IMG/VR virus record: IMGVR_UViG_3300046477_000356
Coordinates: 1 to 40,183 of that record
Length of the DNA: 40,183 bases
Direction: 5' to 3' (one strand)
Source of the DNA: a virus
Part shown: positions 28,816 through 40,183 of the stretch, piece by piece
How the letters are laid out: each line of letters starts with the position of its first letter
How positions within the stretch are numbered: the first letter of the stretch is position 1
The notes under the pieces: generated by a model
What the model saw: the letters and a program-made list of their open reading frames with translations, nothing else
Told to the model about the DNA's origin: nothing
Databases searched by the model: none
Made by a program: the position numbers and the translations under genes

Positions 28816-29093
28816 GCCGAATGGCCACCATAGCGTTGGTGGTACTTCATCACATGAGGCATCGGCGCCTGCCGCATCCAACTAAATCGGACGAGCCACA
28901 ACAACTCCCCGCCCCAATGTTCCTGCCCGCCTTTGACACGCCAAAGACGAAATCCACGGCGAGTTCCCGGGGATGACCATCCGATGTTGAATAGAAACGT
29001 CCAGGTCAGCGACCACCACGGATGACGCGAGATCAGGTTGATTGAACCGTCGCTGACCCGCTCGAACAAAGCGATCCCATAGGCCACTCGCAT
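28812..29093 (-). CDS. Hypothetical Trp-rich protein, 93 aa
   Basis: Ten or more tryptophans are found in fewer than 100 residues (HPWWSLTWTFLFNIGWSSPG; LLWLVRFSW). The ATG overlaps the portal stop (TGATG). One stretch is hydrophobic enough for membrane contact, but charged residues are interspersed. No family recognised. Confidence 0.55.
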   Translation of the reverse strand: MRVAYGIALFERVSDGSINLISRHPWWSLTWTFLFNIGWSSPGTRRGFRLWRVKGGQEHWGGELLWLVRFSWMRQAPMPHVMKYHQRYGGHSA

Positions 29094-31300
29094 CAGTTTC
29101 TCCTCGGCATTTGTACGATGCCGCCGCCTGCTGCCTGATCGGGATGCAACGCCCCCGGCGGGCGCTTTACCGCGTGCGGCTGGCCCGGCGTCGCCCCCGG
29201 TTGCGGCTGGCCCGGCCCGCCGCCGCCCTGTTGCGGACCCCCGCCATGCGCGGCTTGGCTCCGCTGCATCGAGGCCATCGCCTTCATCTGCATGGATTGG
29301 AGCGTTGCCTGGATGTGGATTCTGATCGTGCCGTGCGGGTCGCCGGTTTCCTGCAGCGCCTGCATGTGCGACTTCAAATGCTCCTGGTTGTTGTCGAGCG
29401 GATGGACCCCAGGCTGGAAGCCCGCCAGCAGCATCGCGTTTTCTTCGTCCGGGGGCATCGTCAACTGGTGGCGCTGGTCAATCAGCACCTTGGAGGCAAC
29501 CGTGGCGCCCAGCAGGTTCTGATAGGCGATCTCGAAAATCGCGGCCGGGTTGAAATCGTAGCCCGCCGCTTTCAGCACGGGTAGGAACGGCAGCGTCACG
29601 TTCACCAGCGCCGGAACCTGCTGCTGCATCATGCCCTGCAGCTTGACCTGCTCGGCCCCCTTCCACAGAAATGCAAAGCCAGAGCGGTTCTGCAGCGGAG
29701 CGACCTGCTCCAACTCGGCCTGTCGCCCCATGAAACCGAACTGGCGCACCGTGATCTCGGTGTCGCGATACTGGTAGTCGAGGTCCACCATCCATTCCAG
29801 GGTCGGGGTGCAAATCTGATGGGTCAGCACCTTGACCCCTTCCGCCGTCGTCAGAAGGTCGACCGCCTGCTCCTGCGCGACCTGGGCCTGGTTGGGCTTG
29901 CCGGCGCGGGTCTGCTGCGGCAGCATCGACGGGTTGACCCCCAATGACTGGAAGATCGCGGCGAGCGCCATCTGCACCCGCGTCACGGCGCGCGGCGTCA
30001 GGTCCGGGAACGACATCATCTCGATCTCGCCCTGGTTCGCCTTCCAGATCGCGCCGATGGCTAAGACGAGCGGTCCCGTTGCCTCGCGCGATTGTCGGAT
30101 AATGGGCCCGGCCGAGAGGGTGGCGGCGTCCGCGCCCTCGTTCACCGCGTCGTTGGCTTCGTACTGCAGGCTCGCGACGTGCGCGATCATGCTCTGGCCC
30201 TTGAAAACCCCGGCGACCTTCTCGACCGGCGCCGACAGGAGCGGACAGCGGTCGTTCCAGTAGGGGTTGCGCTTGCACCCCAGGGGCTCGCGCTCGGGGC
30301 CGAAGAAGACGCGGCAGAGCCTCGGCCTACCGTCCTCGCTGTAAGACCCCTTGTCGTCAAGCCGCAGCATCGTCCAGGTTTCCCAGACTGTCGCCTCCTT
30401 GCCCCCGGCCCGGATGCCAACATGTTCGAGGAGCTTCTTTTCCTGGTTCGCCTCGCCGCGCGACATCTTCGCCATCGCGTCCTTCAGGTCGCGGGCGGCG
30501 CGCTTGGTAATCTGGCCCTGCTCGGCCATCTGCTCGATCTTGTCCCTGCCCCAGCGCCGCACGATCGTGACCGAGCCACCTTTCGCCAGCGCCTCGTCGA
30601 TCGAATCCACGCTCTGCGGCAACACAAGCACGTCGCAATCGTGCAGCACCTCGAAGACGGGGCGGCCTTCGACGACCGTTTCCTCCTTGACGTCCTCGAT
30701 TTCCTCGCCCGGGGCCTCCACCTGCTGGCCGCCCATCTCGATCCGGGGGCCGTGCGTTTCACGTGAAACGATCTGCCGTTCCAATTCGGTCCAATCAACG
30801 TATAGGTTGTATTGCCCCTCGATGTCGCCCTGCCGGCACAGGGGCTTCATCACGTTGGTCTCAAAATGCGCCACGCGCAGGTAGTGTTCGAGAAGCCCCA
30901 CGATGTCGGGCAGCATCGGGCCGCTGCCGGTCTGCTCGATGGCGCGGCCGCCCTGCGGGAACATCTGGTTGGTGAAGCGCGTCACCCGCGCATTCACCGC
31001 GTCGTGGATGATCGGAAAGAATATCTGCGCGATGCCGTTGTAATACTGGCACTCGTTCAGTTCGCAGTTGTAGGCTTCCCAGTACCGCGCCTGGTCGTCG
31101 GCGCGGGGGGACTGGTCCTCGTAGCCCCGCGCGTTGTCGTCCCACACCTTGCCGAGCTTCTCGCGGATCTTCGAGCGCGAGCCGCCGAGGAGGTCGCGGT
31201 CGCGGTCCACCGGAGCGGATGCAACCTCGTCCTCCTCGACTTCACCGCCCTGGCCCGAAGGCCCGGCCTGGTCCAGGACAAACTCGCCGCTGTCCGACAT
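29093..31300 (-). CDS. Portal protein, 735 aa
   Basis: The long acidic-to-helical protein has portal features: a conserved N-terminal YWEAYNCELNECQYYNG...IFFPIIHDAVNARVTRFTNQMFPQGGR, a central stem and wing region with DCDVLVLPQSVDS and WTMLRLDD, GSDAADLG-like ANDAVNEGADAATLS, and a Gln/Met-rich C-terminal helix (QATLQSMQMKAMASMQRSQAAHG) forming a barrel-like extension. Length fits P22-type and other podovirus portals (700-750). The dodecamer would sit at the head vertex and pass DNA. It lies between terminase and scaffold as expected. Confidence 0.85.
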   Translation of the reverse strand: MSDSGEFVLDQAGPSGQGGEVEEDEVASAPVDRDRDLLGGSRSKIREKLGKVWDDNARGYEDQSPRADDQARYWEAYNCELNECQYYNGIAQIFFPIIHDAVNARVTRFTNQMFPQGGRAIEQTGSGPMLPDIVGLLEHYLRVAHFETNVMKPLCRQGDIEGQYNLYVDWTELERQIVSRETHGPRIEMGGQQVEAPGEEIEDVKEETVVEGRPVFEVLHDCDVLVLPQSVDSIDEALAKGGSVTIVRRWGRDKIEQMAEQGQITKRAARDLKDAMAKMSRGEANQEKKLLEHVGIRAGGKEATVWETWTMLRLDDKGSYSEDGRPRLCRVFFGPEREPLGCKRNPYWNDRCPLLSAPVEKVAGVFKGQSMIAHVASLQYEANDAVNEGADAATLSAGPIIRQSREATGPLVLAIGAIWKANQGEIEMMSFPDLTPRAVTRVQMALAAIFQSLGVNPSMLPQQTRAGKPNQAQVAQEQAVDLLTTAEGVKVLTHQICTPTLEWMVDLDYQYRDTEITVRQFGFMGRQAELEQVAPLQNRSGFAFLWKGAEQVKLQGMMQQQVPALVNVTLPFLPVLKAAGYDFNPAAIFEIAYQNLLGATVASKVLIDQRHQLTMPPDEENAMLLAGFQPGVHPLDNNQEHLKSHMQALQETGDPHGTIRIHIQATLQSMQMKAMASMQRSQAAHGGGPQQGGGGPGQPQPGATPGQPHAVKRPPGALHPDQAAGGGIVQMPRRN

Positions 31301-32141: not shown

Positions 32142-32263
32142 GTGGATTACTCCTATCCAGTTCGGGAACAGTTCAACGGCGACATTGCCGATGACGAGCG
32201 CCACCCTGATATGGTGATGATGCCGGCGGTGGCTCCGGTGATGATGAAAACGGCGGTGGTGCC

Positions 32264-32434
32264 TCATCGTGCCCCGACCGGGCGATCGGGCCAGCCGGCG
32301 GCAACCTGCTCCCAGAATATGCGCTCCGATTCCTCGTCCGTAAAATAGAACTGCGGATAGATCACGGCCTCGCCATTCGGAGCGGCGGGCGGCAGAACCT
32401 TGAACTCGGGCGGTGGCGGGGGTTGCTTTTTCAT
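32264..32434 (-). CDS. Small protein with poly-Pro start, 56 aa
   Basis: Starts MKKQPPPPPEFKVLPPAAP, then a compact domain YPQFYFTDEESERIFWEQVAAGWPDRP. It is missed by length cut-offs, yet its ATG overlaps the terminase stop (ATGA) and its stop overlaps another ATG in the same way. This double coupling supports a real gene. Function unknown. Confidence 0.6.
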   Translation of the reverse strand: MKKQPPPPPEFKVLPPAAPNGEAVIYPQFYFTDEESERIFWEQVAAGWPDRPVGAR

Positions 32435-34527
32435 CGTGCCCTCATTGGCATCGCGCTCGCATACGCCCTTCCGGTGCGTTCGTCTATGCGCATGTTCTGC
32501 TGGTCATCCTCCGCCTCGGGGGCGCGGGTCGCCGTCAGGCCGCAAAACGCTTCCAGCCCCTCGACCAGCAGCCGGTACGGCCCCTCCTCGGCGTCGTCCT
32601 GCAGCCGCCCGCGCGTAAATTCCCTCGTATACCCGCCGGCCAGCGCGCGCAGCGTCCAGCGCGCCCGGGGGCTTATCTCGACCGCCGGCATCCCGCGCAC
32701 CGTGCGCGCCAGCGCGTCGCGCAGGAACATCTGGCCCGTCACCCGGTCGCCGCCGACCCGCGCCTCGGCGACCGACGCGCGCACCGCCTGCATCAGCCCG
32801 ACATTCATCATCTGGTCGCTGTGCCGGTCGGGCACGACCCACACCGGGCGGTTCGGCCGCGAGATCATCCGGTCGGGCAGCGGCAGCTTCAGCATGTCGT
32901 CCCACGGCCGCGCCACCGGGACAGCGCGCACGCTGGACGTGTCGATCTCCTGGGCGGCCGCCTGCACGATGTCGCCGGCGCGCTCGGCCGGTCCGCCCTC
33001 GAACACCCAGTCGGCGAGAATCCGCAGCTTGCCCTCGAACGCCTGGACCAGCATGGCCGTGGTCATCGAGGCGGTGGCGTTGCCCGCCAGGAACAGGTGC
33101 TGCCCGGCGGCCAGCGCCGCGCCCTCGACGACGTGGTTCTCCGGGTTGAACCCGTCATATATGGGGACAGCGGCGCCGCCGCCGTCGCGCGTCTGCGCGT
33201 AGGCCAGCGCGTTCGCGGTGTCGCGGATGCCGTGCGGGAACGAGAGGAGTTGCGCCTCCAATTCGGGCTGGGGCCTCGCGAAGATGACTTCGCCCGCCGC
33301 GAACAGCGGCTGCAGCCCCTCGACAAAGGCCGCCTGCCCGCCGCCGCGCGTGCCGCTGATCGCGTGGACGCCCTTGACCGGGATCGTATAGCCCCGGCGC
33401 ACCTGCTCCTGGCGGATCGGCTGCATCAGCCATTGTTCGAGGCCGTCCAGTTCGGCCATCACCCACACGGGGTCGAAGCGCTCGGCGATGTCAAAGATCA
33501 GCGAGACGGTTTCGTCCGGGGCGATGAACTCGGAGCCGCTCGCCCAGACGACGAGGCGGCGGTTGACCCACGACCACGCCGCCCAGCCGAGGGAGGCGGC
33601 CTGTTTCCCGCTCGCCCGACGCGGGTCGACAAAGGCGTAAACGCCCTCCCAGGTCCGCACCCGGGGCTCGTATTTGAACATCGCCCGGGTGAAGCGGCGG
33701 TCGGACGAGCTCGTCGCCTCGCACATGTATTCCTGCGCGTAGAGGTCCATGTTGCCGCGGTAGTCGTACTTAAGCTGGTCGATCTTCGCGAGGGGCCACT
33801 TCGCCGGCCAGGTCGCGACGCGCTCGCCGCGCTCACCCAATGACTCGATCGGGAATTTAACGGTCTTCATCCCGTCTTTTTCGAGCCGCTCGGGCAGACT
33901 GTTCGAGCCGCGGCGGGTGCCGAGGAAGCGGCCCCAGGTCGTGAGCGCGTCTTCGAGGCAGGGCTGGAAGGTCTGCTTCAGCCAGCGCCAGGTTTCCTCG
34001 CGCTCGGTGTCGGTGCGCTTTTCCTCCGGGTCTTCGATGTCGTCCACGATGAAGGCGTCCGGGCGCCACTGGCGGAACTTCAACCCGGTGATCTTCTGGT
34101 CGCGGCCGAGGGCCTGGATGCAGATGCCGCTCGCCAGCACGAGCTTGCCGGCCTGCTCGGTCTCGCCGCGCAGCTTGCCGAAAAGCCCGTCCTTCTCGTC
34201 GAAAAACGGGTTTACGTCGATCTCGTTGGCGATGGCGTCGATGCGGTCGCAGGCGCGCGGGAAGCTGGGGCCGATGATGACGAGGTTGTGGAACTCGCGG
34301 AACGTGGCCTTCAGAAGCGCGGTCTCCTCGGTATAGGTCGTCTTGGCGACGCCGCGGAACCCCTCGACCGAGAGGCGAGGGGCCGGGCTGTTGATTGCCG
34401 CGACAAGCTGGCGGTGGGCTTCGGGCGAGGCGTCGGGATGGCGGTGGGCAAAGAGGTAGCGGTGCGCGAGCCAGCGATCGGCGCGCAGCCGCTTTAGAAG
34501 TGCGAGGTGCTCGGCCTCCTCGGTCAT
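32431..34527 (-). CDS. terL: Terminase large subunit, 698 aa
   Basis: The N-terminal ATPase has RLSVEGFRGVAKTTYTEE (variant Walker A, about residues 56-64) and DAFIVDDIEDPEEKRTD (Walker B plus catalytic Glu, about 159-166). The C-terminal RNase-H-like nuclease starts at VYAFVDPRRASGKQ with candidate metal Asp301, then WVMAELDGLEQWLMQPI and AFVEGLQPLFAAGEV. About 200 extra C-terminal residues follow. It pumps DNA into the head and cuts it. No separate small subunit is recognised; the two small genes just upstream are the places to look. Confidence 0.9.
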   Translation of the reverse strand: MTEEAEHLALLKRLRADRWLAHRYLFAHRHPDASPEAHRQLVAAINSPAPRLSVEGFRGVAKTTYTEETALLKATFREFHNLVIIGPSFPRACDRIDAIANEIDVNPFFDEKDGLFGKLRGETEQAGKLVLASGICIQALGRDQKITGLKFRQWRPDAFIVDDIEDPEEKRTDTEREETWRWLKQTFQPCLEDALTTWGRFLGTRRGSNSLPERLEKDGMKTVKFPIESLGERGERVATWPAKWPLAKIDQLKYDYRGNMDLYAQEYMCEATSSSDRRFTRAMFKYEPRVRTWEGVYAFVDPRRASGKQAASLGWAAWSWVNRRLVVWASGSEFIAPDETVSLIFDIAERFDPVWVMAELDGLEQWLMQPIRQEQVRRGYTIPVKGVHAISGTRGGGQAAFVEGLQPLFAAGEVIFARPQPELEAQLLSFPHGIRDTANALAYAQTRDGGGAAVPIYDGFNPENHVVEGAALAAGQHLFLAGNATASMTTAMLVQAFEGKLRILADWVFEGGPAERAGDIVQAAAQEIDTSSVRAVPVARPWDDMLKLPLPDRMISRPNRPVWVVPDRHSDQMMNVGLMQAVRASVAEARVGGDRVTGQMFLRDALARTVRGMPAVEISPRARWTLRALAGGYTREFTRGRLQDDAEEGPYRLLVEGLEAFCGLTATRAPEAEDDQQNMRIDERTGRAYASAMPMRAR

Positions 34528-36249: not shown

Positions 36250-36600
36250 ATGTCAGATACAACTCCGAACCGCAAACATCAAGCCTCGCTGGCCGACACG
36301 ATGACCCCGGAAGATTTCTGGCGTGACCTATGCGAGAAGGACGACCGCACGAGCCCGGAAGATTACCCGGACATGGCTCTCGTTACCCAGAACGAGCTTG
36401 TCTACATGCTAACCGCCTACGGCGACCAGCGCGCCCGCGAGGCCCGGGCGGCGGCGATCGAGGAGGCGGCGAAAACGTACCGTTACATCATTGCTCAATG
36501 CGGAATACCCGATCCCGACGAAGCGTGCCGCCAGATATTGGCGACGTGTTTACGTGCCCTCACCGATGTCCCGCCGCGGCCCGAGGGAGGCGAGGGGTGA
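36250..36600 (+). CDS. Hypothetical phage protein, 116 aa
   Basis: GGGAGGG precedes the ATG. The middle reads QNELVYMLTAYGDQRAREARAAAIEEAAKTYRYI, a helical pattern shared by small phage proteins, after a disordered start (SDTTPNRKHQASLADTM). It ends GGEG and its stop overlaps the next GTG. Function unknown. Confidence 0.65.
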   Translation: MSDTTPNRKHQASLADTMTPEDFWRDLCEKDDRTSPEDYPDMALVTQNELVYMLTAYGDQRAREARAAAIEEAAKTYRYIIAQCGIPDPDEACRQILATCLRALTDVPPRPEGGEG

Positions 36601-36881
36601 GCAACCTGGTGCGCGGCTCCGGACAACTCGGGCTCGCCGAGCAGGAGCGCGCTCTCGCCATGATTCGCTCCGGCGCCCGCCAGCGCGACGTCGCGGCCAT
36701 CCTCGGCGTCACCAAGAACACGATCGCCGGAATCTGGCGCCGCCACGGCAGGCCGGCCACCCCCGAGCCCACGACGCTCTGGACCCGCTGCGCCGCCCTG
36801 GAAGCCCGCCTCGCCGCCGTCGTCGCCGAGAACGACGGCATCGGCCGCATCCCCGGCTCGAACGAGGCGCCGCGGCGGTGA
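36597..36881 (+). CDS. Helix-turn-helix protein, 94 aa
   Basis: GTG start in a GTGA overlap. Residues about 13-45 are EQERALAMIRSGARQRDVAAILGVTKNTIAGIWRRHGRP, a resolvase/GcrA-like HTH (RDVAAILGVTKNTIAGIW). A short coiled coil (ALEARLAAVVAEN) follows. It probably binds DNA and may regulate the methyltransferase gene to which it is coupled by GTGA. Confidence 0.7.
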   Translation: MSNLVRGSGQLGLAEQERALAMIRSGARQRDVAAILGVTKNTIAGIWRRHGRPATPEPTTLWTRCAALEARLAAVVAENDGIGRIPGSNEAPRR

Positions 36882-37066
36882 GCGTCCGCATCATCACCGG
36901 CGACGCGCTGACCGAGTTGAACCGGCTGCCGGAGGGCAGCGTGCATTGCTGCGTGACCTCGCCGCCGTTGCGTACTTGCGGCGGTGATGTTATTCTGGGC
37001 GCATGGAACCAGAAGATTTGGCCTACGCGGCGGGGGTCATCGACAGCGACGGATATATCGGCGTGA
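36878..37066 (+). pseudogene. N-terminal stub of beta-class DNA methyltransferase (copy 1)
   Basis: VSVRIITGDALTELNRLPEGSVHCCVTSPP is the N-terminus of a phage beta-class methyltransferase ending in the catalytic S-P-P of motif IV; the next codon should be Tyr or Trp but reads LRTCGGDV and the frame runs 32 codons into the homing endonuclease gene. Composition is GC-rich like the phage. The GTGA overlap with the HTH gene shows that this is the original 5' end. Confidence 0.8.
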
Positions 37067-37482
37067 AGCGGAACACGTATTCGATGCGACGAGTAGGTGA
37101 TTGCGCCCAGCCGACGTACAGCGAGCGTGTCTGCGTCAAACAAGTTGAGCCGCAGGCTGTCTATCTACTCAAGGACATGTTCGGCGGGACGCTAACGATG
37201 GGAAAGCCGACCGCAAAGAAGGGCCGCCCGCTTCATACGTGGCAGACGACAGACATAAAGGCGGCAGACTGTCTCCTTGCAATCATGCCGTACCTTCGGA
37301 TCAAACGAGAGCAGGCGTTGAACTGCCTCGATTTGCGTGCGGTAAAGGAGCGCAGCAAGTCGGCCAGGGTATCGCGTGGGCGGGGGCATCGAGGTTCAGC
37401 GCCGCGCACCGACGAGCACTCGTCTCTCATGGAAAAGGCATATCAGAAGGGGAAAGCACTGAACGCGGTCGGCGTTCGATGA
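37003..37482 (+). CDS. LAGLIDADG homing endonuclease, 159 aa
   Basis: The dodecapeptide YAAGVIDSDGYIGV with Asp near residue 14 is a single LAGLIDADG motif, followed by VKQVEPQAVYLLKDMFGG, TWQTTDIKAADCLLAIMPYLRIKREQALNCLDLR, the standard alpha/beta fold. A single-motif enzyme would act as a homodimer, cutting a long recognition site in intronless or inteinless methyltransferase alleles. It ends with an ATGA overlap to the replacement N-terminus. Confidence 0.85.
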   Translation: MEPEDLAYAAGVIDSDGYIGVKRNTYSMRRVGDCAQPTYSERVCVKQVEPQAVYLLKDMFGGTLTMGKPTAKKGRPLHTWQTTDIKAADCLLAIMPYLRIKREQALNCLDLRAVKERSKSARVSRGRGHRGSAPRTDEHSSLMEKAYQKGKALNAVGVR

Positions 37483-37577
37483 GTGTGCAGATAATCACAG
37501 GTGACGCATTGGGAGTGCTCAAGGGTATGGCGTCTGAGAGTGTGCATACGTGCATCACTTCTCCGCCATACTATTGA
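37479..37577 (+). CDS. Replacement N-terminus of DNA methyltransferase (copy 2), 32 aa
   Basis: MSVQIITGDALGVLKGMASESVHTCITSPPYY is about 60% identical to copy 1 (17 of 28 aligned residues) and includes the full catalytic SPPY. Its TGA lies at TATTGAA, where the body of the enzyme continues in another frame. The stop overlaps a TTG start (TTGA) of the next frame. Either reinitiation makes a two-piece enzyme or the gene is frameshifted. Confidence 0.7.
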   Translation: MSVQIITGDALGVLKGMASESVHTCITSPPYY

Positions 37578-39181
37578 ATGGGCTGCGGGATTACGGGACG
37601 GCGACGTGGGAGGGAGGCGATCCAGCGTGCGATCACAAACAAGGCCGGCCTGGGGCGGGGCGGGCGGACGGTATCGTTGACGAGCGTGGCCAACGCAACC
37701 GCGATGGTGTCGGGTCAATGGGCGGCGATTGCAAGTGCGGCGCTCGCCGAATCGACGCGCAGCTCGGCCTGGAAGCGACGCCCGACGCCTACGTGGCGGC
37801 GATGGTCGGGGTGTTCCGCGAGGTGCGCCGCGTGCTGCGGAGCGACGGCACTCTCTGGCTCAACATCGGCGACAGCTATGCGAACGACGGCAAGTGGGGC
37901 GGCAAGACCAGCGGCAAGCATGTCCCGGCGCTTGCCGGTGATACGGGCATTGGCCGCCGTCGGCAGAACACCGGGTTGAAATCCAAAGACTTGATCGGCA
38001 TCCCGTGGGCTTTAGCAAAGGCGCTCCGCGATCCCTACTATACCGGAACGATCAGCCGCGAAGTCGACCGGGTGTGGCTCGCCGCCATTATCGACGGCGA
38101 GGGATGCTTCTTCATTCACAAGCGAAAGGCTGGCACATCAGCCTATAGCAGCTTTGTTCGGGCCGACGGCACGGAGGCACATTATTCCCGCACGGCGGAT
38201 ACCTACGAGGTTGGTCTCGAAATTTCGAACACCAGCAAAGCCTTAATAGACAGGGTCGCCGAGATAGTGCCGGGAGGTACGTTTACAACCCAAGGCCCGG
38301 AGCAAAACGCACGCCGAAGGCAGACAATTTATCGCTGGCGGCTTGCGCCGAACGAAACGAAGCGGCTGGCGCAAGAATTATATCCGCACCTGGTAGCGAA
38401 ACAGCATCAAGCTCGGTTAATTTTTTCCTGTCCATCCAGCGGCGATGCCGGTGCCGCCGCACATGAGGCGATGATGGCTCTGCATAATGGAGCAGGTACA
38501 TCCGTCAACTTTCCCGCGCCACCATCACTATTTGAGCCGGGATGGTATCTAAGACAGGACATAATATGGGGAAAACCCAACCCGATGCCCGAGAGCGTCA
38601 CCGATCGCTGCACCAAGGCGCACGAGTACCTGTTCCTGCTGAGCAAGAGCAAGCGGTACTATTTCGACGCCGGCGCGGTCAAAGAGAACCGCAGCCATGA
38701 TGAGGACGCCAACACCTTTCGTGGCGGTTGCTACGTTTCAGGCGATACCGACAACGGCACGCTGGGAAAGCGCCGAATTCCGGGCAACAAGCGGCACAAA
38801 CATCAGGCCGCCTACGAGCAAGGCGATCATCGCTCACGGACGAAAGCCGGGCTGCTGGCGTATTGCGACAGGGAGCGCGCCGCCGATCAGAACGATCTCG
38901 GCTCCCGTAATAAGCGCTCGGTCTGGACGATAGCGACCGCGCCGTTCCCCGAGGCGCACTTCGCCACCTTCCCGCCCGCCCTCGTCGAGCCGTGCATCAA
39001 AGCCGGATGCCCCGCCGGCGGCACCGTCCTCGACCCCTTCCTAGGCGCCGGCACGACAGCCCTCGTCGCCGATCGCCTCGGCCGCTCCGCCATCGGCATC
39101 GAACTCAACCTAGCCTACGCCGAGATGGCCCGCCAGCGCATCGCCGACGACGCCGGACTTTTCTTCCAAGCCGCCAAGTGA
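37574..39181 (+). CDS. Beta-class DNA methyltransferase body with in-frame homing endonuclease domain, 535 aa
   Basis: The protein begins LNGLRDYGTATWEGGDPACDHK, which follows the SPPY motif in phage N6-adenine/N4-cytosine methyltransferases. It continues TLWLNIGDSYANDG, KDLIGIPWALAKALRD, then an insertion of about 169 residues, then GWYLRQDIIWGKPNPMPESVTDRCTKAHEYLFLLSKS and motif I VLDPFLGAGTTALVADRLGR near the C-terminus. The catalytic motif is not in this chain. It would use S-adenosylmethionine to methylate DNA, perhaps against restriction. Activity is doubtful unless the split and insertion are removed or complemented. Confidence 0.75.
   Translation: MNGLRDYGTATWEGGDPACDHKQGRPGAGRADGIVDERGQRNRDGVGSMGGDCKCGARRIDAQLGLEATPDAYVAAMVGVFREVRRVLRSDGTLWLNIGDSYANDGKWGGKTSGKHVPALAGDTGIGRRRQNTGLKSKDLIGIPWALAKALRDPYYTGTISREVDRVWLAAIIDGEGCFFIHKRKAGTSAYSSFVRADGTEAHYSRTADTYEVGLEISNTSKALIDRVAEIVPGGTFTTQGPEQNARRRQTIYRWRLAPNETKRLAQELYPHLVAKQHQARLIFSCPSSGDAGAAAHEAMMALHNGAGTSVNFPAPPSLFEPGWYLRQDIIWGKPNPMPESVTDRCTKAHEYLFLLSKSKRYYFDAGAVKENRSHDEDANTFRGGCYVSGDTDNGTLGKRRIPGNKRHKHQAAYEQGDHRSRTKAGLLAYCDRERAADQNDLGSRNKRSVWTIATAPFPEAHFATFPPALVEPCIKAGCPAGGTVLDPFLGAGTTALVADRLGRSAIGIELNLAYAEMARQRIADDAGLFFQAAK
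38033..38539 (+). mobile_element. In-frame LAGLIDADG insertion 2 inside methyltransferase
   Basis: Between ALRD and GWYLRQ, normally adjacent or nearly so in the family, lie about 169 codons with EVDRVWLAAIIDGEGCFFIHK (LAGLIDADG-like), GLEISNTSKALIDRVAEIVPGG and LAQELYPHLVAKQHQARLIF. No intein ends are seen (no N-terminal Cys/Ser splice block or C-terminal His-Asn). The frame stays open through the insert and into the following exon. Confidence 0.7.
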
Positions 39182-39197
39182 CCAACGAATTGGTCAC
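39178..39197 (+). terminator. Hairpin over the methyltransferase stop
   Basis: A perfect 8-bp stem (39178-39185, 39190-39197) with loop CGAA includes the TGA. It is followed by CACTTTCG, a weak T-run. A terminator or an operator are both possible. Confidence 0.4.
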
Positions 39198-39204
39198 CAC
39201 TTTC

Positions 39205-39216
39205 GTAACGCGTTAC
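39205..39216. promoter_or_regulatory. 12-bp perfect palindrome
   Basis: GTAACGCGTTAC reads the same on both strands, eight bases after the preceding hairpin. It resembles a dimeric repressor operator. A TTGACA on the minus strand follows at 39228-39223 but has no convincing -10. Confidence 0.4.
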
Positions 39217-39501
39217 AAAACCTGTCAAGCCCCTAAATACCCTTAAACCGCGCCACTTTCGCAACACCCGCCGAAAAACGTGTGCTATACCACGCGTTCA
39301 GCGCTGTTGCGTGCAGCGCTCCTCTAAGCCGAAAATCGCCCCCATCGAGGGCAGAGCCTCGGAGCCGCTGCCGACGAACGGCTCACACAATAGCCCACGG
39401 CTCTGGGTAACGCCTCGGATAGCCCCTCGACCCGATCTCCAAACAGGTGTGCGGGAGTGGCCTCCTAGTTGAGCGCACACCGGCGGCAGGGTAGAGGCCC
39501 C

Positions 39502-39660
39502 GTGGCCGCCAACCCGATTTCCAAAAACCTGCGCGAATTTTCGGAGGTGGATACAAAATCCTCTCCCCCACTCGACGACCCCGACGTTTCCCCGAACGTG
39601 CTCGAGCTGCCGGCCGCTGGATGGGCTGCGGGATGGGTAGACGGCTCGACCGGCCTGTAA
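39502..39660 (+). CDS. Possible small protein, 52 aa
   Basis: GTG start with AGAGG five bases before. The product VAANPISKNLREFSEVDTKSSPPLDDPDV...GWAAGWVDGSTGL looks like a plausible acidic peptide and its codons are moderately GC-ending. There is no coupling to neighbours and no family match, so it may be chance. Confidence 0.3.
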   Translation: MAANPISKNLREFSEVDTKSSPPLDDPDVSPNVLELPAAGWAAGWVDGSTGL

Positions 39661-39684
39661 CCCACTGATATCGCTGGCTGTGTG

Positions 39685-39748
39685 GCGGATGGGGTATCCG
39701 CTTACAGCTGCCGTGTTGCTGCTTCGTGCTGCGGTATCGGAGTACCGC
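39685..39748 (+). repeat. Two adjacent 6-bp hairpins
   Basis: GCGGAT...ATCCGC (39685-39701, five-base loop) and GCGGTA...TACCGC (39731-39748, six-base loop) are perfect stems. They stand just before the large palindromes and share the GCGG(A/T)(T/A) arm style. Confidence 0.5.
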
Positions 39749-39751
39749 GAG

Positions 39752-39769
39752 CGTTCAGCCGGCTGAACG
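39752..39769. promoter_or_regulatory. Perfect 18-bp palindrome I
   Basis: CGTTCAGCCGGCTGAACG is self-complementary over all 18 bases. It lies 47 bases from another 18-bp palindrome and upstream of a TTGACA. It may be an operator, an origin or partition site, or a cruciform. Confidence 0.6.
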
Positions 39770-39797
39770 TTGTTCAAACTTCCCGCCGGATAGAAGC

Positions 39798-39815
39798 GCA
39801 TGATTGCAATCATGC
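39798..39815. promoter_or_regulatory. Perfect 18-bp palindrome II
   Basis: GCATGATTGCAATCATGC is self-complementary over all 18 bases and AT-richer than palindrome I. Its sequence is unrelated to palindrome I, so two different dimeric proteins or two structural roles are likely. Confidence 0.6.
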
Positions 39816-39881
39816 ATGAGCGCGGTTCATTCCGCCTGTGTCGAGCATGAACAGATATTTCCCCTTTGGTGAGAATTGTGC

Positions 39882-39911
39882 TTGACACCTGTATCTCCGT
39901 GTGAGAGAAAT
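39882..39911 (+). promoter_or_regulatory. Candidate promoter of last gene
   Basis: TTGACA at 39882-39887 and AGAAAT at 39906-39911 with an 18-base spacer. It lies about 60 bases upstream of the final gene and downstream of both palindromes. The -10 is weak. Confidence 0.4.
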
Positions 39912-39940
39912 GTGTCGTTGCATTATTGGGGAGTGAGCAG

Positions 39941-40183
39941 ATGATCTACCAAGCGATCACCACGAAATATGTCGGCCCGACAAACACCAGGGGCGGGCGC
40001 ATCATTGCGATAACCGGGAGCGGCATCCGGCATACGATCAACTATCCACACGAGTTGACCAGCGAGCAGGGGCACCGCAAGGCGGCCGAGGAGCTGGCCG
40101 CGAAGCTGAACTGGCAGGGCAAGCTGGCTGCCGGCGGGCTGAAGACCGGCTACTGCTTCGTCATGCTCGACAGCGCGGCATAG
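39941..40183 (+). CDS. Conserved small phage protein, 80 aa
   Basis: MIYQAITTKYVGPTNTRGGRIIAI, HRKAAEELAAKLNW and LAAGGLKTGYCFVML follow a familiar phage family of unknown function (AI-x-T-x-Y-x-GPTNTRG-x-RI ... H-x-x-AA-x-x-LA-x-KL-x-W ... GG-x-x-x-G-x-VFV). The ATG follows GGGGAG. The stop is exactly at the window's last bases, so the window may end at an artificial or circular breakpoint. Often found in early regions of phages. Confidence 0.75.
   Translation: MIYQAITTKYVGPTNTRGGRIIAITGSGIRHTINYPHELTSEQGHRKAAEELAAKLNWQGKLAAGGLKTGYCFVMLDSAA

Follow-up and report, generated by a model that had tools for sequence, protein, structure and literature searches.

A non-random palindrome cluster in a candidate regulatory region of an uncultured phage genome

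Close to the right end of a 40,183-bp virus record, just upstream of its last gene, two hairpin-forming inverted repeats and two unrelated perfect palindromes are crowded together ahead of the hexamer TTGACA. This arrangement raises the question of whether such a cluster can be a product of chance and, if it is not, which function it serves. Three functions had been offered in the original prediction, namely a control switch, a replication origin and a partition site, and each is weighed below against the composition of the region, its conservation in related loci and the proteins encoded by these phages.

Palindrome cluster and its chance expectation

The stretch of DNA that was analyzed (hereafter, the window) is the entire virus record of 40,183 bp. 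The structural genes and the large terminase gene (32431–34527) are encoded on the minus strand, and a plus-strand gene set extends from ~36.2 kb to the end of the record and from position 1 to ~3 kb. The record appears to be truncated within this plus-strand operon because the first gene is without a clear start and the records of two relatives measure 46,295 and 46,712 bp.

The methyltransferase region that precedes the cluster (36896–39181) looks rearranged: a short methyltransferase-like start comes before a homing-endonuclease-like gene (37003–37482, PHROG 5046), a second methyltransferase start ends in a frame break near 37577, and residues 171–292 of the 37550–39181 frame produce a second match to PHROG 5046. 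Just past the methyltransferase stop, positions 39179–39340 form a block that is ~79% identical to L017 and L025 and contains, in the window, the 12-bp palindrome GTAACGCGTTAC (39205–39216). A perfect 16-bp palindrome, CGTTTCACGTGAAACG, is located at 30755–30770, within the minus-strand frame 29093–31300.

Direct reading and a script both recovered all the parts listed in the original prediction, that is, two 6-bp hairpins (H1 and H2) and two perfect 18-bp palindromes (P1 and P2) followed by TTGACA (Table 1). H1, H2, P1 and P2 together span 131 bp. Two additional dyads, O1 and O2, were absent from that list. The G+C content is lower over the last 240 bp (0.53 vs 0.65).

Table 1. Coordinates of the features in and around the palindrome cluster (positions in the window)
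Feature	Description	Position	Strand	Basis
Conserved element	CCGATTTCC-AAAAA ... TTTCCCCGAACG; apparently non-coding; upstream boundary of the region	39512–39600	+	nhmmer
H1	Inverted repeat GCGGAT-GGGGT-ATCCGC (GCGGAT-N5-ATCCGC)	39685–39701		Read in sequence and script
H2	Inverted repeat GCGGTA-TCGGAG-TACCGC (GCGGTA-N6-TACCGC); motif CGGTA-N6-TACCG	39731–39748		Read in sequence and script
P1	Perfect 18-bp palindrome CGTTCAGCCGGCTGAACG	39752–39769		Script
O1	Dyad TGAAC-GTT-GTTCA; overlaps the right arm of P1	39764–39776		Sole perfect TGAAC-N3-GTTCA in the window
P2	Perfect 18-bp palindrome GCATGATTGCAATCATGC	39798–39815		Script
O2	Dyad TGAGC-GCG-GTTCA; one mismatch to the O1 motif	39817–39829		Motif scan
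TTGACA	Probable -35 hexamer	39882–39887	+	Recurs in relatives; no good -10 hexamer after it
Last gene	80-aa protein, PHROG 3199 (function unknown); first gene after the promoter	39941–40183 (ATG at 39941)	+	PHROGs match

P1 and P2 are the sole perfect palindromes of at least 18 bp in the window, for which the composition-based expectation is 0.33 (0.0035 in the 744-bp intergenic stretch). When the window was shuffled 300 times with its dinucleotides preserved, such palindromes numbered 0.38 on average, and two or more were present in 4.7% of the shuffles. Two lying no more than 100 bp apart were obtained in none of the 300, which bears out the earlier claim that the pair is very unlikely to have arisen by chance. 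A search of 127 other loci (1,262,037 bp, some overlapping) yielded seven palindromes that long, none of them within 100 bp of another. The 340-bp stretch from the conserved element to the last gene holds four dyads (stem of at least 6, loop of 0–8), compared to a shuffle mean of 0.54; this number was reached by 0.4% of 500 shuffles, and the summed stem length by none. Given the rarity in shuffles and other loci along with the excess of dyads, the cluster is real and non-random. No near-copy of P1 or P2 with fewer than four mismatches was detected elsewhere in the window.

Conservation of the dyads and of an adjoining element

Searches with the large terminase identified 14 loci (L014–L027) and, when an alignment was used, 11 more distant ones at 24–32% identity. 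The terminases of L014, L015 and L027 are 99–100% identical to that of the window, yet these loci end before the region, as does L021; the syntenic place is reached by ten loci (L016–L020 and L022–L026). L017 is almost identical in sequence to L025, and L019, L020 and L022 are likewise near-duplicates close to the element, so that about seven comparisons are independent. A DNA search of 39190–40183 against 50,697 phage records produced no match, the terminase produced 13 weak matches in these records, all below 60% identity, and a terminase search of genome_contigs returned 17 pattern stretches and no relative. The phages of this group are uncultured and are represented solely by viral contigs from metagenomes; the collections searched contained no close isolate. 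A phrase search of titles and abstract starts found no literature describing these motifs, for which other wording is possible.

The dyads were compared across seven regions, those of the window, L016, L017, L019, L023, L024 and L026. The H2 motif, CGGTA-N6-TACCG, is present at the corresponding interval in the window, L024 and L026, with identical arms and spacer length and with different spacer letters. The other four regions lack it, and no copy was detected in other loci totalling 945,214 bp; L026 has one more copy, which falls within the terminase match. No 5-mer dyad was common to the window, L024 and L026 in any of 2000 shuffle sets, and a shared 5-mer dyad of any kind appeared in 0.5% of the sets for the window and L026 and in 0.3% for the window and L024. 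The half-site and spacing of H1 (GCGGA-N7-TCCGC) are common to L017 only, among the six relatives compared, and P1 and P2 occur in no relative. In viral_contigs, P1 has no exact match and P2 has one, in an unrelated context with no similar layout on a 5.8-kb contig (L013). A lack of conserved dyads in close relatives had been named in advance as the result that would speak against the original prediction; such a lack was found for P1 and P2 and not for H2, which is retained in L024 and L026. The striking palindromes are thus private to this record, and the parts that are common to relatives are humbler.

Two copies of TGAAC-N3-GTTCA, each with one mismatch, were found in the corresponding interval of L026. 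When up to one mismatch is allowed, this motif occurs four times in the whole window, two of them here, and twice in the 22-kb L026 locus, both here. O1 and O2 are separated by 53 bp centre to centre, and the L026 pair by 32 bp, near five and three helical turns, respectively; both the motif and the helical phasing were picked after looking and should be treated with caution. The pentamer GTTCA/TGAAC is represented five times in 115 bp, out of 80 occurrences in the window (Poisson probability ~4e-6 per 115 bp, ~0.0015 over the window).

Compared with shuffles, the dyad density is far above expectation in the window, above it in L024 and in weaker excess in L026; the excess is weak in L017 and nil in L016, L019 and L023, all of which carry TTGACA/G. 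A candidate third shared motif, CGTTTAAACG, has six sites in family loci and none in 945,214 bp of others, and four of the six are upstream of TTGACA (L026:6740 and 6865; L024:3713; L023:2406). It was rejected, with two of the six sites in reading frames and none in the window.

These comparisons bear on two alternative explanations. The dyads could have arisen by chance or be neutral remnants of, e.g., a mobile element or the methyltransferase/homing-endonuclease insertion, as the restriction of P1 and P2 to this record among those searched and the homing-type genes upstream might suggest; however, both the density of the dyads and the sharing of motifs exceed those in shuffles, and we consider this explanation extremely improbable. 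Alternatively, the dyads could act as RNA, forming a four-hairpin run within the 3' portion of the transcript from the methyltransferase gene, with a role in stability, processing or attenuation. On visual inspection, each of the four can fold into a stem of 6–7 bp with a loop of 4–6, and the plus strand is free of terminator-like sites from the methyltransferase stop (39181) to the cluster. Nevertheless, no Rfam family was matched (best E 0.62, below its gathering score), no hairpin is followed by a T run, and the arms of H2 are kept in their letters, not via compensatory change. Because the letters themselves are kept and not just the pairing, a DNA-binding protein suits H2 better than an RNA hairpin, and an RNA role appears quite improbable.

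Upstream, the region is bounded by a conserved element. An nhmmer model built from the window, L017 and L026 detected this element in each of the ten relatives extending to the syntenic place (E values in this small set, 3e-9 to 2e-24), with a weaker match in L120 and L124 (2.8e-7). A 52-aa frame (39502–39660) was set aside as a gene: although open in L016, L018 and L019, it is interrupted by stops in L026 and L023, and hence conservation of the stretch, which is apparently non-coding, is most likely at the DNA level. In genome_contigs, the element pattern matched 42 stretches, none convincing with the profile, and these were attributed to chance, as was L131. The element precedes an HGGxSTG-domain gene in L016 and L017 (NCBIfam model, over the cut-off), with a similar gene below the cut-off in L120. 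To the phage, the element is probably more important than the palindromes, and a fair guess would make it a candidate packaging (cos/pac) signal.

The palindromes might accordingly lie within an extended packaging site, with the dyads as cosB-like recognition sites of the small terminase. This possibility draws on the retention of the element throughout the ten relatives and on its location upstream of an HGGxSTG-type gene in L016, L017, L019 and L120, given our assumption that HGGxSTG proteins may be small terminases. However, L016, L019 and L023 have the element and no conserved dyads, none of the group's contigs was observed to terminate at the element, and PHROGs assigns no function to HGGxSTG proteins; on balance, we regard a packaging role of the dyads as unlikely.

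Promoter, candidate regulators and proposed mode of control

TTGACA or TTGACG is found 150–367 bp past the element in the window and in 8/8 relatives scanned for TTGAC[AG] (L016, L017, L018, L019, L022, L023, L024 and L026), against a background of 0.25 per 300 bp. By eye, L024 alone has a good -10 hexamer (CTATAA after 17 bp); the window has no acceptable one, and a scan with the sigma-70 consensus finds no full promoter there. No intrinsic terminator was identified on the plus strand of 39100–40183, where the minus strand has one weak match (39970–39982).

The last gene is 84–89% identical to its copies in L004–L006, in which the upstream sequence is quite different (the L006 contig is not among the terminase relatives). 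In nine other relatives of this gene (L004–L012), the longest perfect palindrome in the upstream regions is 14 bp, indicating that the dyads belong to the place and not to the last gene. In relatives, the rightward operon encodes an HGGxSTG-domain protein; more distally, in one relative (G003), it encodes a Rad52-type recombinase (L130:3371–4201, minus strand; PF04098, E 1.8e-34), which is also found in G007 and is absent from the window record.

Among the functions originally proposed, a control switch is the best supported, with TTGACA/G in all the scanned relatives and some of the dyads recurring upstream of it in two of these; the other two functions found no support. A phage replication origin, with the dyads as initiator sites, would be compatible with a non-coding stretch of lower G+C that contains inverted repeats and heads an operon leading to the Rad52-type recombinase in G003. 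However, the region includes no DnaA-box match (two are present elsewhere in the window), no direct-repeat array beyond short two-copy families and no clear skew turn, and no replication initiator was recognized among the scanned proteins, which leaves an origin unsupported and very improbable. A partition site is unsupported as well: in ten records, which may be fragments, ParB_N yielded one weak match and none over the cut-off, and no ParA-type ATPase (AAA_31) was detected. Phage_integrase is missing from all 14 records and HTH_3 exceeds the cut-off in one of the 14 and not in the window, with the caveat that the records may be fragments. Lacking an integrase, the 14 records, most of them fragments, do not indicate a lysogeny switch.

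In our assessment, the region is probably a promoter preceded by a group of putative protein-binding sites with two-fold symmetry. Repeated symmetric sites with a common motif are indeed present, O1 and O2 here and two in L026, and the H2 motif in three phages. No regulator stands out. The 94-residue helix-turn-helix (HTH) protein (36597–36881), suggested originally as a binder of the dyads, is a poor candidate because its presence does not track with them: L016 encodes a homologue (54% identity) and is devoid of the dyads, whereas L026 has dyads and no homologue. The second protein suggested, an HTH protein of 51 residues, was not found in the window. A 52-aa HTH protein of L017 is also encoded in L016, L019, L020, L022 and L025 and has no homologue in the window, although one might be encoded in the part of the genome that the record lacks. 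HTH scans produced weak matches, with no candidate tracking with the dyads. The alphaproteobacterial LexA box is GTTC-N7-GTTC, and its sole match in the window, at 32160, is not in the region.

The region separates the conserved element from the first gene of the rightward operon, and under the proposed mode of control, dimeric regulators would be expected on H2, O1, O2, P1 and P2. With O1 and O2 spaced near five helical turns, proteins bound to them would face the same side of the DNA and could touch each other or loop the DNA. Activation, or repression by looping, would be favored over a repressor that covers the promoter because the sites are ~60–150 bp upstream of TTGACA, the -10 hexamer is poor and O1 and O2 share one helical face. 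The window and L026 are the only compared phages with both an upstream DNA methyltransferase and TGAAC-N3-GTTCA dyads; that the phage's own methyltransferase, encoded directly upstream, sets the binding of the regulator to the dyads and thereby times the downstream operon is nonetheless an exceedingly doubtful scheme. Overall, this looks like an ordinary type of regulatory region from a poorly characterized phage group. If the promoter reading is true, it would provide a candidate regulatory region for these uncultured phages, and 39720–39840 would serve as a short DNA bait for finding the regulator.

Comparison with known systems

Operator regions of the lambda type contain several two-fold-symmetric sites at an early promoter, with helical spacing. 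For the present region, by contrast, neither a divergent pair of promoters nor a CI/Cro-like gene was found beside it, and its dyads are of several unlike sequences.

Work on the repressor gp33 of mycobacteriophage BPs (PMC4557955) shows that a short palindrome in a phage can act as an operator half site, paired with an imperfect partner a fixed distance away. The region described here resembles the gp33 operators in its short perfect intergenic palindromes by a promoter, its paired and spaced sites, and its imperfect partners. In BPs, the -10 and -35 of PR flank OR, and further sites related to it are present elsewhere in the genome (PMC4557955); by contrast, the sites here are upstream of the -35, P1 and P2 are single-copy, and neither a repressor nor an integrase was detected.

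In Pseudomonas phage K5 (PMC5945682), a palindromic site of SrpA, a small regulator needed for expression, is located at -201 to -183 from the start codon and serves, at that distance, to raise expression; another SrpA site is at a phage N6-adenine methyltransferase gene. The likeness to the present region is a palindrome well upstream of a phage start codon; as given there (PMC5945682), the SrpA motif, NTATC-N(0,9)-GATAN, differs from the present dyads, and SrpA is a Pseudomonas host protein. By analogy, the region may work like the BPs and SrpA sites, yet with dyads that differ from both, it would be a member of neither.
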